From the NCBI GenBank assembly GCA_002780065.1, contig PEWQ01000126.1:1-7589 (forward strand): 7,589 nt of DNA, written 5' to 3'. Within the stretch, counting starts at the first letter, position 1. Every line of letters starts with the position of its first letter. Of this stretch, positions 70 to 7,466 are shown one piece after another. The notes beneath the pieces are model-generated. The model saw only the letters and a program-made list of their open reading frames with translations, was not told the origin of the DNA and did no database searches. A program made the position numbers and the translations under genes. This DNA comes from Candidatus Hydrogenedentes bacterium CG07_land_8_20_14_0_80_42_17 (GTDB lineage: Bacteria > UBA8481).

Positions 70-909
70 TTAGCGAATATTTGAGATGTAAATCTGTCCG
101 TCAGGACCTCTGAAATAAAATATCGGAGTATTTACTTTTGCAATAATAGGAACATCTGCGGCTGTTCTTGTTCTGCTTCGAGTTGAGCTATTTCTTCTTG
201 AAGCGGTATTTGTTCCGGAATACGCGAGCTGAAGATTCAATTCGCCGCTTCCGCCGAATTCTCTGTAAAACCTAAGCACCCTTGGAACATAATTCAAAGT
301 CTCTGAATAAGGTGGAATCCCGCCGTAACGCTCTACAGCCTGCGGTCCTGCATTGTAAGCGGCAATTGCAAGGTCAAGTCTTCCAAATCGATCGAGCATC
401 ATTCTGAGATATTTTGCTCCGCCTAAAATATTCTGTCTCGGTTCAAATACATCATTCACTCCTACTAATCTTGCCGTCGACGGAATTAATTGCATTAATC
501 CTCTGGCGCCGGCTGAAGAAACAGCGTAAGGATTGAAATTGGATTCAGCTCTCATTAAGGCATATATGAGCGATTCCGACAGGCGATACGCCGCGGCGGC
601 TTCCTTCACATACACTTTGAAGACTGACGGATCTCTTTTCAAAGCGGAAGAATAATTCGTTCGAACATTCGTATTGCTTGTTCGAGCCGACGCCGGCGAC
701 AGTCGCGGCAAAACGACGACTCTACTATTTTCCGAAGGCACATCGGTTATCCTTATTCTGCCTTGTGCGTCTGTATAAGCGTAAATGGTCGCAAAAGAAG
801 GAACAGCAAAAGATAAAGAGAGCAGAGCAATTAAAGCAAGATGAAGGCAAGATTTATTGAAAAAAATTACCTTTATTTTTTCAGGAGACTCAAGATTAAA
901 TCTTTCCAT
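70..909 (-). CDS. Secreted lytic murein transglycosylase (SLT family) with DUF4124-type motifs at both ends
   Basis: This should cleave the MurNAc-GlcNAc bond of peptidoglycan in the periplasm, leaving 1,6-anhydro-MurNAc ends. An N-terminal signal peptide has a hydrophobic core LHLALIALLSLSFA and a likely cut after SFA. A DUF4124-like segment follows (IYAYTDAQGRIRITDVP, about residues 42-58), then a Ser/Thr/Arg-rich linker. The SLT domain covers about residues 95-220, with catalytic Glu in RAESNFNP (about residue 122), the GLMQ motif, and AYNAGP near 185. After a second Ser/Arg-rich linker the protein ends in IFYFRGPDGQIYISNIR, which resembles the N-terminal motif. TTG at 912 precedes ATG at 909; I chose ATG, although AAAGG sits 8 nt before the TTG. 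The start overlaps the upstream FliT-like gene by 14 nt, so it is the last gene of the flagellar operon. It may help the flagellum cross the wall, but a housekeeping role is also possible. Family assignment is very secure. Confidence 0.93.
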   Translation of the reverse strand: MERFNLESPEKIKVIFFNKSCLHLALIALLSLSFAVPSFATIYAYTDAQGRIRITDVPSENSRVVVLPRLSPASARTSNTNVRTNYSSALKRDPSVFKVYVKEAAAAYRLSESLIYALMRAESNFNPYAVSSAGARGLMQLIPSTARLVGVNDVFEPRQNILGGAKYLRMMLDRFGRLDLAIAAYNAGPQAVERYGGIPPYSETLNYVPRVLRFYREFGGSGELNLQLAYSGTNTASRRNSSTRSRTRTAADVPIIAKVNTPIFYFRGPDGQIYISNIR

Positions 910-1348
910 CAACTCTGCGACCTTTCCTCTCGTTTCTATTATACTTTTTATTTAATGTTCTGGCACTATTGTTCTTTAAAATTTCCAGTCGAATCTTTTC
1001 TTTTATCTTTTCCATTTCACGCAAAGCTGAAACTCTTAATGCGGCAACCTGATGCACAGCAGAAGAAGCCTCATTAAATTCTTGCTCGGCGCCGACACTT
1101 ATTACGGCATCATAAAGCTTAATATTTTTTTCTTCATTTTTTCTTATTTCAATTCGTTTTGCTTCCACTTCCTCTCCCAACATTTTTGCCTTATCAATAA
1201 ATTCCGTCTCCAACTCAGATAAACTTGAAATCACCTTATCAATATCTTTTGCCGACTCAACTGAAGATATCCAGGAAACAAGCCTATCAGCATATAAATT
1301 ATAACAAGCCGCAAGCCTAGATAGAGACTCTTTAAGCGAAGAACTCAT
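896..1348 (-). CDS. Small helical flagellar protein, FliT/FlgN-like chaperone candidate
   Basis: A 150-residue protein without signal peptide or membrane segment. It is almost entirely predicted alpha-helix, with long charged heptad-like stretches (about 34-75 and 100-126) suggesting a helical hairpin or coiled coil, and a strongly basic C-terminal tail (about 129-148). Its start overlaps the fliS stop as ATGA (1345-1348), so the two are probably translationally coupled. FliT commonly follows fliS, and FliT and FlgN are small all-helical export chaperones for filament cap and hook-junction proteins, so size, fold and position all fit. I see no sequence motif that proves FliT, because this family diverges strongly. 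The alternative is a lineage-specific flagellar accessory protein. The gene is convincing; the function is inferred mainly from context. Confidence 0.7.
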   Translation of the reverse strand: MSSSLKESLSRLAACYNLYADRLVSWISSVESAKDIDKVISSLSELETEFIDKAKMLGEEVEAKRIEIRKNEEKNIKLYDAVISVGAEQEFNEASSAVHQVAALRVSALREMEKIKEKIRLEILKNNSARTLNKKYNRNERKGRRVDGKI

Positions 1349-1776
1349 GTCTTGATTGAAACTCCCGATTGAGTCTTTGGCGATTCCACATTCACTTCAA
1401 CCTTTTTGAAAACCTCGTTCCAAGTAGTTCTGAATGCATCAAGGTCTTTTACAATTTCCTCCACCATTGCCACATCTTTTCTGATGTTCGCAGTAATCAT
1501 TCTTACTCTGATCTCTTCATAAGCGCGTGCAATAATCCGAGAAATTTCTTCGCCTTTAGAATGATCCAAAGCAAGAATCAGCTCAGTCATAATTCGCTGA
1601 GCCTTCATAGAATTATTATGAGCTTCTTCAATCTTTCTCGCTTTTGTAGCTTCTGCAAACTGATTCATAAATTTTATAGCGCCTTCGAAGAGCATCACTA
1701 CCAGTCTGCCCTGACTGGCAGTCTGAATAGATGTCGTTTTATAAGCTTGCTGAGCTTTGTAAGGGTTCATGGTCAT
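1345..1776 (-). CDS. fliS: Flagellar export chaperone FliS
   Basis: FliS binds the C-terminal disordered part of flagellin in the cytoplasm, stops premature polymerisation and delivers it to the FlhA export gate. The 143-residue length is typical. The diagnostic N-terminus is present: MNPYKAQQAYKTTSIQTAS, then GRLVVMLFEGAIKFM, matching the usual MNPY...TASPxELxxMLYxGAIxF pattern. The family's helical bundle follows, including a segment like the conserved ELxxSLD region (TELILALDHSKGEEIS) and an LDAFRTTWNEV segment near the end. ATG at 1776 is preferred over ATG at 1770 because GAG lies 6 nt before it. The gene starts 3 nt after the maf stop and overlaps the next gene by 4 bp. Having the flagellin chaperone beside a Maf glycosyltransferase fits handling of glycosylated flagellin. 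Confidence 0.95.
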   Translation of the reverse strand: MTMNPYKAQQAYKTTSIQTASQGRLVVMLFEGAIKFMNQFAEATKARKIEEAHNNSMKAQRIMTELILALDHSKGEEISRIIARAYEEIRVRMITANIRKDVAMVEEIVKDLDAFRTTWNEVFKKVEVNVESPKTQSGVSIKT

Positions 1777-1779
1777 ACG

Positions 1780-3099
1780 TCACTCATTTCTATCGGCACC
1801 TTTGGACAACATCTCTAGAAGTTTGGAGATAGGAATATGTTCAATTCCTATCTTTGCTCCGTGCATACTGGTTTGAATGAATCTGACCTGAGGATTTTCC
1901 AAAGCGATCTTTTCAAAATGCAGTCGGTATGAATCTAAGACCGGAGTAGTCATAACCCAATTCCCGTCAACACTTTGAACCCGCCTCAAATTTCTTTGCC
2001 GCCATAAACTCATTATACAATTTTCTGCAGAACAAAACCTTGTCGAGCGTGAAACCTTTTCTTCTTCTTGAACATTCCCTCTCGAATACATTTTTTTTTC
2101 TGTTAGCGCCAAATCCTGCCCGACCAAAACGATGCATTTGGCTCCAAAACGCAGAGCAAGCACTGCCGCGGCGGTTGCGACACTCCCTCCAATATCACTC
2201 ATGACGGAATCTTTTTTCACAAAAAACTTTTCTTCAAGCGGATGCCCCTGTCCGAATAGATATATTTTTTTAGCTTTTTTTAAAATTTCGTTTGGAGAAA
2301 GAACAGAAGCCAAAAGCGGAATATCTCCAATGCAATCTAAAGAAGAAGCTTTTATCTTTTGAGGATCAACCGAGCAAACATAATCCGGAATTACTCCTGC
2401 ATGCAAAACACTCTTGAGCGCAGAATCAACAGCAATAACGACTGCATTTCTCTTTAAATTTGTCCTTTGAAAAGAATACCCAGCCAAAAATTCAAGGTCT
2501 TCATCCAGTGAAGGTCCTGCCGACAAAATAAAAATAGTTCGATTTCGAAACGCTCCATCCAATTCAGTTATCCATGAAACCGTTTTATTTTTCTCTGCGC
2601 TGCGAATGAACGATTCATTTTCAATTAAATTTTTTCGCCATACGGATTCAAAGGCATTGAAGGTAATTACATGAGTGGCGAGTTCATCTACAGCAGTCTC
2701 TGCCGCGTGCCTGAGGCTGGAATAATAATCATGATCTTCATCGAGATATGTTCCTGAAACGATTGATAGTTTTCCTTTTGTCAAATCTTCGATGGAAAAA
2801 ATTATGTTTTGAATCGTCTCCGAGTCCGGAAAAATAATCATCTCTAAATCCGGACGAAGCTTTGCCAGTTCTTCATGCCGCTCGATCAAAAAAAGAAATT
2901 TAGTTTTATTTCTGATGATGTCCGCAGAATAACCCAATCCCGGAGAAAAGAGTATTACGGCATGAGATTCGGAAATTTCGGCGGCTGTGCGCTCGGCTTC
3001 TCGGACCGGATCATACTTGCTGTGAAAATAAATTCCATTTACAAGAAGAGTTCTTATGCCTGATTCTGCAAGAGGAGTTTCTATTCTAATCTGCTTCAA
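1780..3099 (-). CDS. maf: Motility-associated factor (Maf/DUF115) glycosyltransferase
   Basis: Maf proteins transfer nonulosonic acids (pseudaminic or legionaminic acid type) to Ser/Thr of flagellin before export. The N-terminal part (about 15-110) is a Rossmann-like domain with SPGLGYSADII. The central DUF115 domain (about 150-345) carries SAGPSLDEDL at 193, AVDSALKSVLHAGVIPDYVCSVDP at 223-246 as two adjacent strands, GGSVATAAAVLALRFGAKCI at 304 and VGQDLALT at 326; all are typical of Maf and of the related MptE-like pterin pyrophosphokinases. At 439 residues it is shorter than many Campylobacter or Aeromonas Maf proteins, which often exceed 600. The start is TTG: it overlaps the upstream TGA stop as TTGA, AAGG lies 10 nt upstream, and no internal ATG occurs before the first conserved block. 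A run of nine A (2091-2099 on this strand) lies inside the catalytic domain. No sugar biosynthesis genes are in the window, so the sugar donor is unknown. Confidence 0.88.
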   Translation of the reverse strand: MKQIRIETPLAESGIRTLLVNGIYFHSKYDPVREAERTAAEISESHAVILFSPGLGYSADIIRNKTKFLFLIERHEELAKLRPDLEMIIFPDSETIQNIIFSIEDLTKGKLSIVSGTYLDEDHDYYSSLRHAAETAVDELATHVITFNAFESVWRKNLIENESFIRSAEKNKTVSWITELDGAFRNRTIFILSAGPSLDEDLEFLAGYSFQRTNLKRNAVVIAVDSALKSVLHAGVIPDYVCSVDPQKIKASSLDCIGDIPLLASVLSPNEILKKAKKIYLFGQGHPLEEKFFVKKDSVMSDIGGSVATAAAVLALRFGAKCIVLVGQDLALTEKKMYSRGNVQEEEKVSRSTRFCSAENCIMSLWRQRNLRRVQSVDGNWVMTTPVLDSYRLHFEKIALENPQVRFIQTSMHGAKIGIEHIPISKLLEMLSKGADRNE

Positions 3100-5312
3100 C
3101 CAGTCTGAACCTTGCGAAGAATTTTAGGCGAAACTGAATCGATCGATTCAGTGCCGGTAAGAATCATTACTCGTTCGAGTTCATCCCTCAATTGGTTCCA
3201 ATATAGCTCGACTCCTTCTCTGCCGCCGCCAACCGCGGCAATAGCAAGCGGCCGCCCGATCATGCAGAGGTCTGCTCCAAGCGCAAGAGCTTTCAAAACA
3301 TCTTCACCGGAACGAATTCCACCGTCGAGAATTATCGGCACTGTTTTTTTAAGTTCAGAAACAATCTCAACCAGCGCATCAGCTCCGCCTGCCATAAAAT
3401 CCATAACCCTGCCGCCATGATTCCCGACAATGACCGCTTTAGCTCCGGCAGAAACTGCTTTCTTTGCGTCTTCCACCGTCATTATTCCTTTTACGATGAA
3501 AGGGATACTGCATTCTGAAATTATCTTTTTGAGTTCACTCTCGCTTTTCGGAGCCACCGCCTGCCCCTTTGCTTTCATGGTCACAAAAGCCGATGCGTCT
3601 ATATCTACTCCAACCGCCGGGCATCCTGTCGCTTCCGCAAAATGTATTCTGTTCATCACTTCTTCATACGAGCGCGGTTTGAATATTGGAATTGCCCGTC
3701 CTCTGACAAACGCTGCGGCAGAAAGTCCGATTCGAAACTTTTCCGGAGAAGCTCCATCGCCGACACATGCAATTGTTCCTGCAGAATTCGAACCGAAAAC
3801 TATAGCCTCCGCAAATTCCTCCTCTGCTATAGCTCCACCCATATTTGTAACCGCACCGGTCATAGGAGCCGAAATAACAGGTAAAGACAATTCGATTCCA
3901 AGAAAAGAAGTTCTAAACTTTGGAGAATCAAAATCATGAATGAAAGAAGGAATAAGTTTATATCGAGCCAAGGAAGCTACATTTTCCATAAAACTTCTTC
4001 CTGTGCCGATACCTCCCATTCCAGGCATCATTCCCGCACAATATACTCCGTCGCAAATCCTGCAGACTCGGCAATACTTGCCGAAAAGATTTCGCGCTTT
4101 TGAATTAATGTCGGACATCGTCAAAACAGTTCGACTTTCTGTCTCGATTTTAATCTGCTCCAATGCTCTATTCACAATTGATTCGCAATCTTCACGGCTG
4201 TCACAAACAGCGATCACATGGCCTTGCTTGTCCATATTCGAGATTGGAATTCCGACTTCATCGCCGACATGCGCTTTGATAATTACTTCTTTTACTCCTT
4301 TTATTCTTCGAGCTTTATTTACTCCGTCAATTCGTATAATTCTGCCCGGAGATGCAATTATGGCGCGTTCCATAGAAACTCTATTCTGGTATTCAGGAAT
4401 AACCGGTTTCTTTCCGATGGCAATTTCGATAGCGCCGCAAATCATCGAGTAGCCAGTTGAAAGCGGAAAGGTATGTGAGCTCATCCAGCCTCCGGAAAGC
4501 CGCGCCGCGCACTCGCCAATCATTGGACCGGACTCAGTCAGTTTCACATCACCCTTCGCGGCGCCAAAAGTTATTCCGAGCGCCTTTACCGCTCTACGCA
4601 TAATCTCCTTAGCCGATTCAATCTTCTCTTCAGGCTGATTCGACGGAAGATTATGACCGAGTTCAATAAAATACGGAGGACGAGCTATAATTCTATCTGC
4701 AATGCCCCATGCAATAATCTCACTGTCCCAAACCAAAGCGTCAATTGAAAGTTCTGAGCCGTCCATAAATTTTTCTACAATGACTTCGCCGCTTGTCGAA
4801 CAAGATTTCGCGTGACGAAATCCATTCTCAATTCCGCTCATGTCATCGACTCGAATCACTCCGCGTGCACCCATATTGTCGACAGGTTTTATCACCAAAG
4901 GAAATCCTAATTTCAATGCGGCATCGCGTGCCTCATCGATCGCCCATATTCCCTGAAAATCCGGGACCGGAACTCCAGCCTGCCGCAGTATGTTCCTCAT
5001 CTTTAATTTGTGAGTTGCATTTTCCGCAGATTCGTAATGAATGCCAACTAGCCCTAATGCGCCTGCTACTGCCGCTACAGTGAGAGATGCATCTGTCCCG
5101 ACTGTTATGACTCCGCGGAGCTGGCGCTGATATTGACGGGCAATCCGAACATTTCCTTCGATATCTTTTGTCGACATTATTACGGGAATATCAGCAGTAG
5201 CAAGCCCAGGCGCCTCAGGATTGTAATCGGTAACCATACAGCGAAGTCCCATCTCTTTTGCTATTCGAATTGCAGGCACCTGCATCAAACCTGCTCCGAC
5301 TATCATCAGCAT
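3096..5312 (-). CDS. ATP-grasp ligase fused to FMN-dependent alpha-hydroxy-acid oxidoreductase
   Basis: A two-domain, 738-residue cytoplasmic protein. Residues about 1-395 are an ATP-grasp enzyme: an N-terminal nucleotide-fold (MIVGAGLMQVPAIRIA), the ATP-binding strand PLVIKPVDNMGARGV near 138, acidic metal-binding block IGECAARLSGGW near 265, and a C-terminal part (about 315-390) resembling the LAL_C2 domain of L-amino acid ligases. Such enzymes activate a carboxylate as acyl phosphate and join it to an amine. Residues about 399-738 are an FMN TIM-barrel of the lactate/glycolate oxidase type: SAPMTGAVTNMGG, lysine in IVKGIMTVEDA, active-site His-Arg in GNHGGRVMD, and phosphate-binding DGGIRSGEDV...ALGADLCMIGRPL. 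A Cys cluster (CRVCRICDGVYC, near 414) opens this half. No Shine-Dalgarno precedes the internal ATG of the second half, so a true fusion is likely. ATG at 5312 is chosen over TTG at 5333 because CAGGAG at 5322-5327 lies between them. The gene is first in the operon and overlaps maf by 4 bp. Substrates are unknown; a role in flagellin glycan synthesis is inferred. Confidence 0.88.
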   Translation of the reverse strand: MLMIVGAGLMQVPAIRIAKEMGLRCMVTDYNPEAPGLATADIPVIMSTKDIEGNVRIARQYQRQLRGVITVGTDASLTVAAVAGALGLVGIHYESAENATHKLKMRNILRQAGVPVPDFQGIWAIDEARDAALKLGFPLVIKPVDNMGARGVIRVDDMSGIENGFRHAKSCSTSGEVIVEKFMDGSELSIDALVWDSEIIAWGIADRIIARPPYFIELGHNLPSNQPEEKIESAKEIMRRAVKALGITFGAAKGDVKLTESGPMIGECAARLSGGWMSSHTFPLSTGYSMICGAIEIAIGKKPVIPEYQNRVSMERAIIASPGRIIRIDGVNKARRIKGVKEVIIKAHVGDEVGIPISNMDKQGHVIAVCDSREDCESIVNRALEQIKIETESRTVLTMSDINSKARNLFGKYCRVCRICDGVYCAGMMPGMGGIGTGRSFMENVASLARYKLIPSFIHDFDSPKFRTSFLGIELSLPVISAPMTGAVTNMGGAIAEEEFAEAIVFGSNSAGTIACVGDGASPEKFRIGLSAAAFVRGRAIPIFKPRSYEEVMNRIHFAEATGCPAVGVDIDASAFVTMKAKGQAVAPKSESELKKIISECSIPFIVKGIMTVEDAKKAVSAGAKAVIVGNHGGRVMDFMAGGADALVEIVSELKKTVPIILDGGIRSGEDVLKALALGADLCMIGRPLAIAAVGGGREGVELYWNQLRDELERVMILTGTESIDSVSPKILRKVQTG

Positions 5313-5469: not shown

Positions 5470-6687
5470 ATGCGAAAAGTTGTATTAGTTATTCTGGCGG
5501 TAATGTCAGTTTCATTGCTTGGCTCATCAAATTCTGCTGTTGCAGACGATGAATCTCAATGGAGTATCTGGCGCGCGGCATGTCTTGAAGCAGGAAACGG
5601 TCCAATAAAACTTGCGGATGAACCTCTCACTATTAAGGTTTGGCAGAACCCGAACAATGATCAGTATAAAGAATGGGTTCCGGTAATAAACGGCCGCATA
5701 ATAGGACATACTCGATCTGGTGATGCAATCAAAATTGTAATTTCTAAAGATGGAAAAGATTTGATTACTCTACGCAAAGGACTGAAAGGAAACAATCCTG
5801 AAGAGTTGGGGTATTGCGAGAATTTTACTTTCGATGTGAATGATGAAGGCACTGCCTTGTCAGCTACAGGCGAATTGACTCTGACATTCAAATACTATAA
5901 CGATCAAGATGAAACCGAATCCGTGATTGGAATCAGGAAGATTAAGGTTGTAAAGCTGGCACAGCATATCGGATCTTTCAAGCATGTTTGGAAATATGGA
6001 ATCTTGTCGGATGACCTTGCGGGAAGTTCTTACTTTTATCTTTCAGTGGAAGATGAATGGTCTATCCCGAGAGTTTGGTTCTACACATGGGGGAACAGAG
6101 AGAACGGCAATATTGAAGATGTCTCTTGCAAAATCGAAGTTGACGGAAAACGTATCGAATTGCCAAATAATTTTCTTTCAACTTATGGAGACATCAGCAG
6201 TTTGGAGCAAAGAGAAGAGTTGTATCTAAAAGACGTAGAAGGCAACGGAGTAATAAATGATTACAATTGGTATAAAATTCGCTGGTGCCCGAATCTTTAC
6301 TGGGGAGAAAAACGCGATGATGTGGCAGAACATTTTATCGCAATGATAGATCATCCCGGCAACTGGGTTGTAAAAATACGTTCAAACGGAAAAATAATCC
6401 GTGAGCTTAGATTTACGGTGACGCCTGATGGTTTGATTGCGGCTCATCCCGAGCAAGATGCATCGAAACCCGGAGCAATCTGCTATGGTCCTGGTAGATA
6501 CTTTGTAGAGACATATTTCGGAAACCCGAATGAGTTCGATGCAAGGTTTAATTCAACAGCTATTTCAGAGGGAATGATGTATGGAAGGCAATGGACCAGC
6601 GACGAGGTCAAGAACGGAATGATTAAGGCTCTTCCGCCTGCTATTCGCGGCAAAAGAGTCTTTCCAACAGCGGCACTGCCAAGATAA
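5470..6687 (+). CDS. Secreted beta-rich protein of unknown function
   Basis: A 405-residue protein with a classical Sec signal peptide: RK, hydrophobic core VVLVILAVMSVSLLG, likely cleavage after AVA at residue 25. The mature part is rich in aromatic residues and short alternating beta-like strands. One segment (about 298-322: GNWVVKIRSNGKIIRELRF followed by TVTPDGLI) looks like the last strands of an immunoglobulin-like beta-sandwich, as in extracellular modules where a G-x-W strand pairs with a final xFxV strand. Five Cys (about 38, 116, 220, 273, 338) could form disulfides in the periplasm. A W-rich middle (about 199-280) and a Lys/Arg/Pro-containing C-terminal tail complete it. The start is secure: GGGGAGG lies 4 nt before ATG. 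The gene ends in tandem TAA TAA and is followed closely by the barrel-like gene, so the two probably form an operon. I do not recognise the family and propose no function beyond export from the cytoplasm. Confidence 0.8.
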   Translation: MRKVVLVILAVMSVSLLGSSNSAVADDESQWSIWRAACLEAGNGPIKLADEPLTIKVWQNPNNDQYKEWVPVINGRIIGHTRSGDAIKIVISKDGKDLITLRKGLKGNNPEELGYCENFTFDVNDEGTALSATGELTLTFKYYNDQDETESVIGIRKIKVVKLAQHIGSFKHVWKYGILSDDLAGSSYFYLSVEDEWSIPRVWFYTWGNRENGNIEDVSCKIEVDGKRIELPNNFLSTYGDISSLEQREELYLKDVEGNGVINDYNWYKIRWCPNLYWGEKRDDVAEHFIAMIDHPGNWVVKIRSNGKIIRELRFTVTPDGLIAAHPEQDASKPGAICYGPGRYFVETYFGNPNEFDARFNSTAISEGMMYGRQWTSDEVKNGMIKALPPAIRGKRVFPTAALPR

Positions 6688-6699
6688 TAAAAAGATGTT

Positions 6700-6740
6700 A
6701 TGACTTATCAAAAAAAAATTTGCATAATATTTTTTTTTCG
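6700..6740 (+). other. Frame-shifted N-terminus with A9 and T9 homopolymers
   Basis: ATG at 6700 lies 12 bp after the preceding stop and begins MTYQKK, a typical charged start of a signal peptide, but it is out of frame with the downstream gene. Between them are nine A (6710-6718) and nine T (6730-6738). One extra base in either run joins the frames: in the A run it gives MTYQKKNLHNIFFSAILSIF, in the T run MTYQKKICIIFFFSAILSIF, both continuing to a cleavage site after VCA. This is either a sequencing or assembly indel, a slippage-controlled start, or a recent frameshift. Confidence 0.6.
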
Positions 6741-7466
6741 GCGATATTATCGATTTTTTTCTTTGATATTTCAGTTTGTGCCGAAGATTCTCAGCTTGGC
6801 AATTTTGAAGCTGGAGTATCGCGGCCGGGTTATTCTGGAGTCGCTAATTCAGATACATCTTCAGTTTCTTATGATACTGAGGCAACTGCTCTATATACTC
6901 AGCTCTTCATTTCAGCGCTCAAATTTGGATTGCTTCTGCCTCAAGCATTCGTAGAGTCAATGAAAACGGATGATATTTCTTCCGACCAGAAATTCGATTT
7001 AAGAATTCTCTACGGCAATGACAAGAGATCTCTTTCTCACATTGCCGGCGACGGACGACTTGCTATTGCACATGGTTTCGGACTTACTGCCGGCTATCTT
7101 GGATATCGTGAAAAAAACGCGGGCAGAACAGAGCATCTGGAATTTTATCGAAGCGACGTTCGGTATCAAATCGGTTCGCTTCGGAATTCCGCGGGTCTAG
7201 AGCTTGGAGGCCGTTGGATGACCGGCGGTATTGAAACTCGCTCAGGCCTTGACGGTGCCGTGACAGTAGATCTCTCGCCGCATCCGATTTTTCACTTTGA
7301 CACATCCTACAGGATTTCACGTCTCTCTGCCTCGACAATCAGAGAGTCAGCTGTCGGCATCACTGCCTATTACAAAGGCATTGGAGCGCGAATAGGATAT
7401 CGCAATCTTGACAGCGGAGTGAATCATCTTGAAGGGTTCGAGGCAGGACTTGGTTTAAGTTTTTAA
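6720..7466 (+). CDS. Putative outer-membrane beta-barrel protein, start probably frameshifted
   Basis: As the sequence stands the longest in-frame reading begins at TTG 6720 and gives 248 residues. It opens with a hydrophobic segment (IFFSAILSIFFFDISVCA) and a likely signal-peptide cleavage before EDSQ. The mature part is a series of amphipathic strands with alternating polar and hydrophobic residues and Gly/Tyr/Arg turns, for example RLAIAHGFGLTAGYLGYRE, SAGLELGGRWMTGGIETR, AVGITAYYKGIGARIGYR. It ends in LGLSF; a C-terminal Phe is the classical signal for BAM-mediated insertion in the outer membrane. The TTG start has no Shine-Dalgarno and lacks the basic residues expected at a signal-peptide start, so the true start is probably ATG 6700 in another frame. 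Its proximity to the preceding secreted-protein gene suggests co-transcription. The specific barrel family is not recognised and no catalytic motif is visible, so a structural, porin-like or export role is all that can be suggested. Confidence 0.68.
   Translation: MHNIFFSAILSIFFFDISVCAEDSQLGNFEAGVSRPGYSGVANSDTSSVSYDTEATALYTQLFISALKFGLLLPQAFVESMKTDDISSDQKFDLRILYGNDKRSLSHIAGDGRLAIAHGFGLTAGYLGYREKNAGRTEHLEFYRSDVRYQIGSLRNSAGLELGGRWMTGGIETRSGLDGAVTVDLSPHPIFHFDTSYRISRLSASTIRESAVGITAYYKGIGARIGYRNLDSGVNHLEGFEAGLGLSF

Follow-up and report, generated by a model that had tools for sequence, protein, structure and literature searches.

The window, that is, the whole 7,589-nt stretch of contig PEWQ01000126.1 analysed here, contains a run of genes on the minus strand that includes an ATP-grasp/FMN fusion gene and a Maf-type gene and ends with a lytic transglycosylase gene. 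The features are as follows.

3096..5312, minus strand: ATP-grasp/FMN fusion gene, encoding 738 aa from an ATG preceded by AGGAG
4128..5312, minus strand: ATP-grasp ligase half, L-amino-acid-ligase type, with LAL_C2 C-terminal domain (residues ~1–395)
4038..4073, minus strand: four-Cys motif C414-x2-C417-x2-C420-D-G-x2-C425 opening the FMN half, a candidate Fe-S or zinc site
3099..4001, minus strand: FMN-dependent alpha-hydroxy-acid dehydrogenase-type half (residues ~438–738; K608, H632, and R635 kept)
1780..3099, minus strand: Maf-type flagellin glycosyltransferase gene (MptE-like PF01973; 439 aa; begins with a TTG that shares TTGA with the stop of the fusion)
1345..1776, minus strand: fliS, flagellin export chaperone (FliS 107 bits), 3 nt after maf
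896..1348, minus strand: ORF of 150 aa, with an ATGA overlap at the fliS stop
70..912, minus strand: SLT lytic transglycosylase with DUF4124, the final gene of the run

The fusion is an uninterrupted 738-codon frame from the ATG at 5312 to 3096, with AGGAG ~12 nt upstream of the start. Pfam places ATP-grasp_4 and LAL_C2 at residues ~135–391 and FMN_dh in the C-terminal half, all above the cut-offs. The longest frame in 200 shuffles of the same composition has 219 codons, and the best 80 genome matches are all full-length fusions of 709–808 aa, indicating that the fusion is not a frame artefact and that the preliminary description, which joined an ATP-grasp half to an FMN-oxidase-type half in one frame, is correct on this point. 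That frames were wrongly joined or the contig misassembled, for which the sole argument is that the window is a 7.6-kb contig of a MAG, is effectively ruled out by these independent fused homologues (80/80 loci) and by genome G001, which repeats the fusion–maf–fliS order at 63% identity.

The junction 'GGTTGAAG' contains TTG at 3099–3097 and TGA at 3098–3096. Therefore, the TTGA overlap of fusion stop and maf start described earlier is real; for maf, TTG3099 is the sole plausible start, the next one in frame lying at codon 55. The 3-nt spacing between maf (stop, 1780) and fliS (start, 1776) was likewise described correctly. The maf product matches MptE-like/Maf PF01973 with 112.7 bits (cut-off 34.6). 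At E 1e-3 the window protein shows no PF20157, an N-terminal domain known from some Maf proteins, and we therefore call this protein Maf-type; the domain is weakly detected in the Maf adjoining a fusion in locus L061. The 150-aa ORF has no match in Pfam or NCBIfam, and its position suggests a FliT/FlgN-like chaperone. No FliA-type promoter was found in the window.

The two halves of the fusion protein

In an AlphaFold model of the fusion (pLDDT 82), residues 1–393 match the L-amino-acid ligase BL00235 (PDB 3vot) with a Z score of 39.1 over 381 residues. For the placement of the two active sites relative to each other, the structure prediction has a pLDDT of 91.9 but a pTM of only 0.58. The same half matches PF13535 (44 bits, cut-off 27) and PF18603 (72 bits, cut-off 29.4). 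Residues K102, K142, E180, E187, K253, D255, E267, and R271 are identical in 41/41 homologues; we take them to be the positions expected for ATP-Mg binding, their individual roles being assumed. By fold, profile, and conserved residues, the N-terminal half is thus a predicted ATP-grasp carboxylate-amine ligase of the L-amino-acid ligase type. BL00235 and RizA, its closest solved relatives, share the fold and LAL_C2. However, identity to them is ~25%, and the window's ligase half is fused to a second enzyme and has only a predicted substrate.

The C-terminal half matches FMN_dh (PF01070) with 214 bits (cut-off 24.9), and residues 396–737 of the predicted model match mandelate oxidase (6a3t) with a Z score of 34.8. 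It shares with the FMN alpha-hydroxy-acid oxidases (mandelate oxidase, glycolate oxidase, and lactate oxidase) the fold and the catalytic Lys/His/Arg set (KG...NHGGR), which corresponds to K608, H632, and R635 in the window protein and is kept in 41/41, 37/41, and 40/41 homologues, respectively. Hydroxy-acid oxidases have active-site tyrosines, Tyr24 and Tyr129 in glycolate oxidase numbering. In a profile alignment, the QLY segment with the active-site tyrosine faces IFKPR and the Tyr24 region faces a Cys-rich stretch. This stretch holds the four-Cys motif, kept in 40/41 homologues in the family form CxxCxxC(D/N)GxxC. Of the earlier label "lactate/glycolate-oxidase-type" the fold stands, whereas in the profile alignment the tyrosine segment has no aligned counterpart, and there is an additional cysteine motif.

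Stand-alone FMN proteins (G023 and G024) share the family signature of the C-terminal half at 40–47% identity. Neither is fused. Both the Cys motif and NHGGR are present in the G023 protein, whose genome has neither flagellin nor Maf, indicating that the stand-alone family has other roles.

Gene order and co-inheritance with flagellin glycosylation

The best 80 matches come mostly from Spirochaetota, and also from Nitrospinota, Coatesbacteria, Lindowbacteria, and Hydrogenedentota; the ATP-grasp/FMN architecture is old. That the two domains are separate housekeeping genes in relatives is rejected for the fused form: FMN-only relatives do occur (G023 and G024), and the ATP-grasp-only forms, from treponeme-type genomes, are a derived clade nested within the fused one.

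Local linkage of the fusion to maf/fliS fails as a general rule. Among the best 80 loci, maf adjoins the fusion in only 2, and most spirochaete copies have unrelated neighbours. In Leptospiraceae the fusion adjoins mnmA- or mnmG-like genes; a role in tRNA modification, which these neighbours would suggest, was set aside, since orientation and neighbours differ among groups.

In three lineages, SpsF/SpsG (PseF/PseG-like), an HpcH/HpaI-type aldolase, and the fusion lie in one run, and two of the runs end in Maf. The orders are SpsF-SpsG-aldolase-fusion-Maf with gaps of 0–52 nt (L061), SpsG-aldolase-fusion-Maf-FliS (G001), and SpsF/SpsG-aldolase-fusion (G019). An archaeal origin of the last (L114), guessed from neighbours, was dropped on finding bacterial flagellin. 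In the window's own genome (G000) the set is split over two contigs, the SpsF-SpsG-aldolase run being on contig C77. SpsG resembles PseG (3hbm). The aldolase has YfaU, a 2-keto-3-deoxy-sugar aldolase, as its best PDB relative and matches PF03328 with 49 bits (L038 copy) and 33 bits (G000 copy; cut-off 25); E119 and D148 are invariant and are presumably the metal-binding Glu/Asp known in the family. It lies next to the fusion in 11 of the best 80 loci and is the only partner in Nitrospinota. Only 51/159 Spirochaetota genomes have it, indicating that it is not an obligate partner.

At the genome level, flagellin and Maf are both present in 29/29 fusion genome records (27/27 distinct genomes, at least five phyla), versus 6/54 fusion-less genomes. 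In one broad draw, Maf is present in 5/5 fusion genomes versus 6/54 others (Fisher p = 9e-5, kinship ignored), and among the flagellin-positive genomes of that draw, in 5/5 with the fusion versus 6/22 without (p = 0.006). The window's own phylum is represented by two genomes in the sample. The fusion or its ATP-grasp half is present in 151/159 Spirochaetota genomes. A Borrelia-like family (four genomes) has flagellin but lacks the fusion, Maf, and NeuB altogether, and a non-flagellate genome (G207) lacks the fusion; here and below, Borrelia-, Brachyspira-, and Treponema-like are labels assigned from phylum, family, and genome size, not names. Strong NeuB is found in 42/45 genomes with the ligase, among them a Treponema-type genome of 1.14 Mb that has retained NeuB and the ligase along with four Maf. 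No strong NeuB is seen in three fusion MAGs, and no fusion in three spirochaete MAGs that have Maf, exceptions that likely reflect incomplete assembly. The window's genome itself has three strong NeuB, the pathway companion that the preliminary description had proposed to look for, along with SpsF/SpsG, 6 PF01973 genes, and 7 flagellin matches. In our judgement, co-inheritance at the whole-genome level outweighs the weak local linkage.

Proposed function and alternatives

The position of the fusion directly before maf, and its presence, among the genomes checked, only where there is flagellin-sugar machinery, make it probable that the enzyme makes an unusual acid group and links it to the sugar that coats the flagellum. 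We propose, with a probability of roughly 0.6, that the fusion is the acyl ligase for a flagellin nonulosonic-acid (NulO) glycan, with redox chemistry by the FMN half, an aldolase-made acid, and transfer by Maf. The aldolase would make the acid from pyruvate and an aldehyde, the FMN half would interconvert the 2-oxo and 2-hydroxy acids at C2 before ligation, and the four-Cys site would probably serve this half. The ATP-grasp half would convert the carboxylate of the small hydroxy acid to an acyl phosphate and, judging from family function, form an amide with an amine of the NulO precursor (that of a 4-amino sugar nucleotide, or else N7/N5 of the NulO itself), such that a hydroxy-acyl group replaces or supplements the usual N-acetyl. 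SpsG and SpsF would finish and CMP-activate the sugar, Maf would transfer the acylated sugar to flagellin, and FliS would serve export. We have low confidence in what the acid is (perhaps a 3-deoxy-aldonic acid or another 2-hydroxy acid like it) and in the direction of the FMN-half reaction. The preliminary description had suggested that a carboxylate-derived substituent is joined to the sugar or donor used by Maf; co-inheritance, NeuB, and the SpsF/SpsG-aldolase-fusion(-Maf) runs agree with this, whereas local synteny (2/80) does not. Its suggested sequence of oxidation first and ligation second is conjectural.

In a variant of the same pathway, the ligase would couple an amino acid, giving a substituent like those of N-methyl-glutamyl legionaminic acid and peptidylamido glycans, and the FMN half would act on an amino- or hydroxy-acid precursor unrelated to the aldolase. 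The L-amino-acid ligases as closest solved relatives, and the C. difficile ATP-grasp protein required for a peptidylamido sugar (PMC5207246), fit this variant. However, a hydroxy or keto acid is what the conserved adjoining aldolase and an FMN half of hydroxy-acid type suggest, and the corresponding Shewanella substituent is apparently nitrogen-free, so we consider the variant unlikely.

It is less probable still that the fusion is a general metabolic or envelope enzyme of spirochaetes and Nitrospinota, non-flagellar, and adjacent to maf only in this order. Near-universal presence in Spirochaetota whatever the neighbourhood, which is equally expected of a lineage-wide housekeeping gene, is consistent with such a role, as are the mnmA-/mnmG-like or unrelated neighbours and the Nitrospinota pairing with the aldolase alone. 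Yet none of the 29 fusion genomes tested lacks flagellin or Maf, and the Borrelia-like family keeps flagellin without fusion, Maf, or NeuB.

Across the family, the FMN half can be dispensed with. In Brachyspira-like genomes it has decayed (four cysteines lost, NHGGR replaced by NNNKY); it has lost the catalytic His in L113, L124, and L127, and is absent in treponeme-type genomes, indicating that its step is optional or replaceable. These losses would also be expected if the half were a structural or regulatory relic and the ATP-grasp half alone were catalytic even here. But selection on a relic would not keep the four cysteines and the K/H/R set, which are intact in 37/41 homologues including the window's, and we regard a relic as distinctly improbable.

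Relation to known systems

Flagellin glycosylation by PseG/PseF/NeuB–Maf in Campylobacter, Helicobacter, and Aeromonas shares with the proposed pathway the synthesis of NulO, its activation with CMP, and its transfer by Maf. Those pathways use N-acetyl or acetamidino groups and are not known to have an ATP-grasp/FMN fusion with an aldolase.

The preliminary description knew of no flagellin modification pathway with this domain pair. In part this needs correction, as ATP-grasp ligases alone have been tied genetically to flagellin modification. In Shewanella oneidensis, SfmE (SO_3265; ATP-grasp_4, predicted carboxylate-amine ligase) belongs to a pathway for flagellin NulO whose other genes include NeuB-like and methyltransferase ones; its deletion alters flagellin mass, and the NulO moiety is apparently nitrogen-free with methyl groups (PMC3765264). 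SfmE, likened here by description, differs in having 412 aa, no FMN half, and a TPP enzyme and ketoreductase as partners (PMC3765264). In Clostridioides difficile, the ATP-grasp protein CDR20291_0245 (PF13535) is needed for the amide-containing end group of the type B flagellin glycan, and its mutants lose the terminal peptidylamido sugar; however, the glycan is of GlcNAc/rhamnose type, the protein is annotated as carbamoyl-phosphate synthetase, and an FMN half is unmentioned (PMC5207246). The fusion family itself very probably includes LA2659 of Leptospira interrogans, listed as a hypothetical protein with an FMN-dependent IPP isomerase-like and an ATP-grasp fold and with expression data only (PMC2964297). 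No enzyme assay, substrate, or glycan structure for any fusion-bearing organism was found in the literature searched. What appears new is the fusion, together with its aldolase partner and its co-inheritance with Maf. If the proposal holds, the fusion would physically link an ATP-grasp ligase to a flavoenzyme that possibly prepares the acid for it, with the substrate class suggested by gene order.

Spirochaete flagellins carry glycans to which the family may be relevant. The T. denticola flagellin glycan, of 450.2 Da, is indispensable for assembly of the filament (PMC9481697). In Leptospira, putative FlaB1 glycans lie between core and sheath (PMC13144727). The literature searched assigns no enzyme to the unusual acyl part of the spirochaete flagellin glycan. 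On a reading that we hold only tentatively, conservation of the ligase half across Spirochaetota, and its absence with Maf in the Borrelia-like family, would make it the enzyme behind both the unusual Treponema N-acyl sugar and the putative FlaB1 glycans. This reading is of an unrecognised ancient acyl-NulO flagellin pathway, in which the aldolase would make a hydroxy-keto acid, the Cys-rich FMN domain would set its C2 redox state, and the ATP-grasp half would attach it to the NulO amine for Maf. As a conserved gene co-inherited with Maf and NeuB and absent from Borrelia-like genomes lacking both, the ligase gene is a direct target for knock-out. In treponeme-type lineages, the ATP-grasp gene comes after an SpsG–methyltransferase fusion, which fits the methoxy-acyl NulO (N7-acyl) that T. 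denticola FlaB reportedly carries according to Kurniyati in 2017.

The fusion and its gene run

Contig C180 makes up the entire window and belongs to a genome bin of 2.39 Mb (G000; 207 contigs, 87% complete). Five co-directional genes, from the fusion to a lytic transglycosylase, occupy the minus strand, and two open reading frames (ORFs) diverge from the fusion.

5312..3096, minus strand: fusion, ATG start, AGGAG about 12 nt 5'
3099..1780, minus strand: Maf-type gene, TTG start
1776..1345, minus strand: fliS, ATG start
1348..896, minus strand: 150-aa ORF, ATGA overlap with the fliS stop
912..70, minus strand: lytic transglycosylase, fifth gene in the run
5470-6687, plus strand: 405-aa ORF, divergent
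6720-7466, plus strand: 248-aa ORF, divergent

The fusion TGA shares bases with the TTG of the Maf gene (TTGA), and 3 nt separate the Maf stop from the fliS ATG; the window sequence agrees exactly with the preliminary description on both points. The 150-aa ORF occupies the usual place of fliT or flgN and has no family match. The two plus-strand ORFs have zero Pfam or NCBIfam matches; a signal-peptide-like stretch opens the 405-aa ORF. The other Maf/MptE-like genes of the genome are a tandem of four on contig C66 (L168, 213-6504) and one on C124.

The fusion had been described as an L-amino-acid-ligase-like ATP-grasp half joined to an FMN oxidase-type half, and Pfam and model matches bear this out. 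Residues ~135-391 match ATP-grasp_4 and LAL_C2, and the C-terminal half matches FMN_dh. A first structure model from a 6-row alignment had a pLDDT of 82.0, which rose to 91.9 with 41 rows. The 6-row model matches the L-amino-acid ligase BL00235 (Z 39.1 over 381 residues) and mandelate oxidase (Z 34.8 over 308 residues), and a pTM of 0.58-0.63 indicates that the modelling does not give the relative placement of the two halves.

The ATP-grasp positions are invariant across 41 homologues. The FMN half of the window protein retains Lys608, His632, and Arg635, but carries IFKPR where alpha-hydroxy-acid oxidases have the active-site tyrosine segment. A CxxCxxC(D/N)GxxC motif in the N-terminal stretch of this half (40/41 homologues) is a candidate metal or Fe-S site, and from the sequence an electron acceptor other than O2 is predicted. 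A stand-alone FMN protein with a CxxCxxCDGxxC-type motif (L041, 7862-8878), from a genome lacking flagellin and Maf (G023), represents a separate uncharacterised flavoenzyme family.

Neighbourhoods and co-inheritance

A scan of GTDB genomes returned 541 relatives, and neighbourhoods were counted in the best 80, all of them (80/80) full-length fusions. These come chiefly from Spirochaetota, including Leptospiraceae and one Brevinema-labelled genome, with others from Nitrospinota, Coatesbacteria, Lindowbacteria, and Hydrogenedentota. Among the best 80 of 541, the Maf adjacency of the window recurs little (directly adjacent in only 2), an HpcH/HpaI-type aldolase lies directly beside the fusion in 11, and an SpsG-type gene lies two genes away in 3. 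Aldolase plus fusion is the commonest neighbour pair found.

The run SpsG, aldolase, fusion, Maf, FliS occurs in G001, to which the window is most closely related (same order, 63%). SpsF, SpsG, aldolase, fusion, and Maf follow one another at L061 (gaps of 0, 3, 2, and 52 nt), and SpsF/SpsG, aldolase, and fusion in G019. A profile search places the aldolase of the window's own genome on contig C77, last in a run of acetyltransferase, SpsF, SpsG, and aldolase. SpsG has a weak but recognisable relationship to PseG (PDB 3hbm; E 0.003), and the aldolase is related to YfaU, a 2-keto-3-deoxy-sugar aldolase. At six Nitrospina-type loci (L075, L080, L086, L088, L091, and L103) the same aldolase abuts the fusion 3' with zero gap, and no glycan genes were recognised beside the fusion. 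At eight Leptospiraceae-type loci (L097, L099, L102, L107, L110, L118, L120, and L125) mnmA-like or mnmG-like tRNA-modification genes adjoin it. One fusion lies on a Candidatus Dependentiae-labelled contig (L074); its genome record, with 12 flagellin matches, is probably a misnamed or mixed bin.

Because local Maf linkage is rare, co-inheritance was tested across genomes. Flagellin and a Maf/MptE-like gene are present in 29 of 29 fusion genomes tried (27 distinct). Among 59 genomes drawn broadly across many families, Maf is above the cut-off in 5/5 fusion genomes versus 6/54 others (Fisher p = 9e-5, phylogeny ignored); flagellin alone is found in 22 of the 54 fusion-less genomes. Among Spirochaetota (159 genomes), the ligase, either within the fusion or as the ATP-grasp half, occurs in 151 and FliS in 154; the exceptions are the informative cases. 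A family that is Borrelia-like by size (four genomes, 1.0-1.5 Mb; this and similar names are inferred labels) has flagellin and lacks Maf, the nonulosonic acid (NulO) synthase NeuB, and the ligase. Genome G207 lacks flagellin, FliS, Maf, and the ligase, and its NeuB is a weak paralog only. Three Maf-positive bins are missing the ligase; all are fragmented, and same-family relatives possess it. Of the 45 ligase genomes, 42 carry a strong NeuB, one of them a treponeme-type genome with a 1,139,633-bp contig. Therefore, the fusion/ligase gene follows the NulO-Maf pathway more tightly than it follows flagella as such.

Decay and loss of the FMN half

The constant part is the ligase, the FMN half being decayed or lost in several lineages. 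A Brachyspira-like family keeps the FMN half with the Cys motif gone and NHGGR changed to NNNKY (e.g., L149 of G081, 8225-10372), and the catalytic histidine is replaced in three other spirochaete lineages (L113, L124, and L127). The ATP-grasp half is intact in all four. In the tree, treponeme-type ATP-grasp-only proteins form a derived clade nested within the fused clade (support 90/65 for all five rows, 100/99 for four). In two treponeme-type families an SpsG-methyltransferase protein precedes the ATP-grasp gene, and at least one of these families has SpsF upstream.

L145, 6620-10060: SpsG-methyltransferase protein directly before ATP-grasp ligase
L148, 8073-14231: the same pair, preceded by SpsF and a weakly SPASM-matching protein

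Proposed route and known flagellin glycans

The preliminary description suggested that the fusion may build a carboxylate-derived substituent for the sugar used by Maf. This idea is supported in part. Assignment to the NulO-Maf flagellin pathway is well supported by the comparative evidence; the chemistry is a prediction. The aldolase would join pyruvate and an aldehyde into a 4-hydroxy-2-oxo acid, the FMN half would interconvert 2-oxo and 2-hydroxy acid, and the ATP-grasp half would form an amide bond between the aldolase-derived acid and an amine of the NulO precursor. SpsG, NeuB, and SpsF would complete and CMP-activate the sugar, and Maf would move it onto flagellin.

The T. denticola FlaB glycan described by Kurniyati et al. 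in 2017 is reportedly a pseudaminic-type NulO with 2-methoxy-4,5,6-trihydroxyhexanoyl on N7. Pyruvate plus glyceraldehyde would be expected to give such an acyl skeleton after reduction at C2, methylation of the oxygen, and ligation as an amide. Since neither the aldolase (at the threshold applied) nor the FMN half is present in the treponeme-type genomes, the match is a consistent lead rather than a test. PMC9481697 cites the T. denticola glycan as 450.2 Da and essential.

ATP-grasp proteins act on flagellin glycans in Shewanella (SfmE; PMC3765264) and C. difficile (CDR20291_0245; PMC5207246). In Leptospira, LA2659, a hypothetical protein in the list of PMC2964297, is very probably this fusion, and putative glycans of Leptospira FlaB1 are located between core and sheath (PMC13144727).
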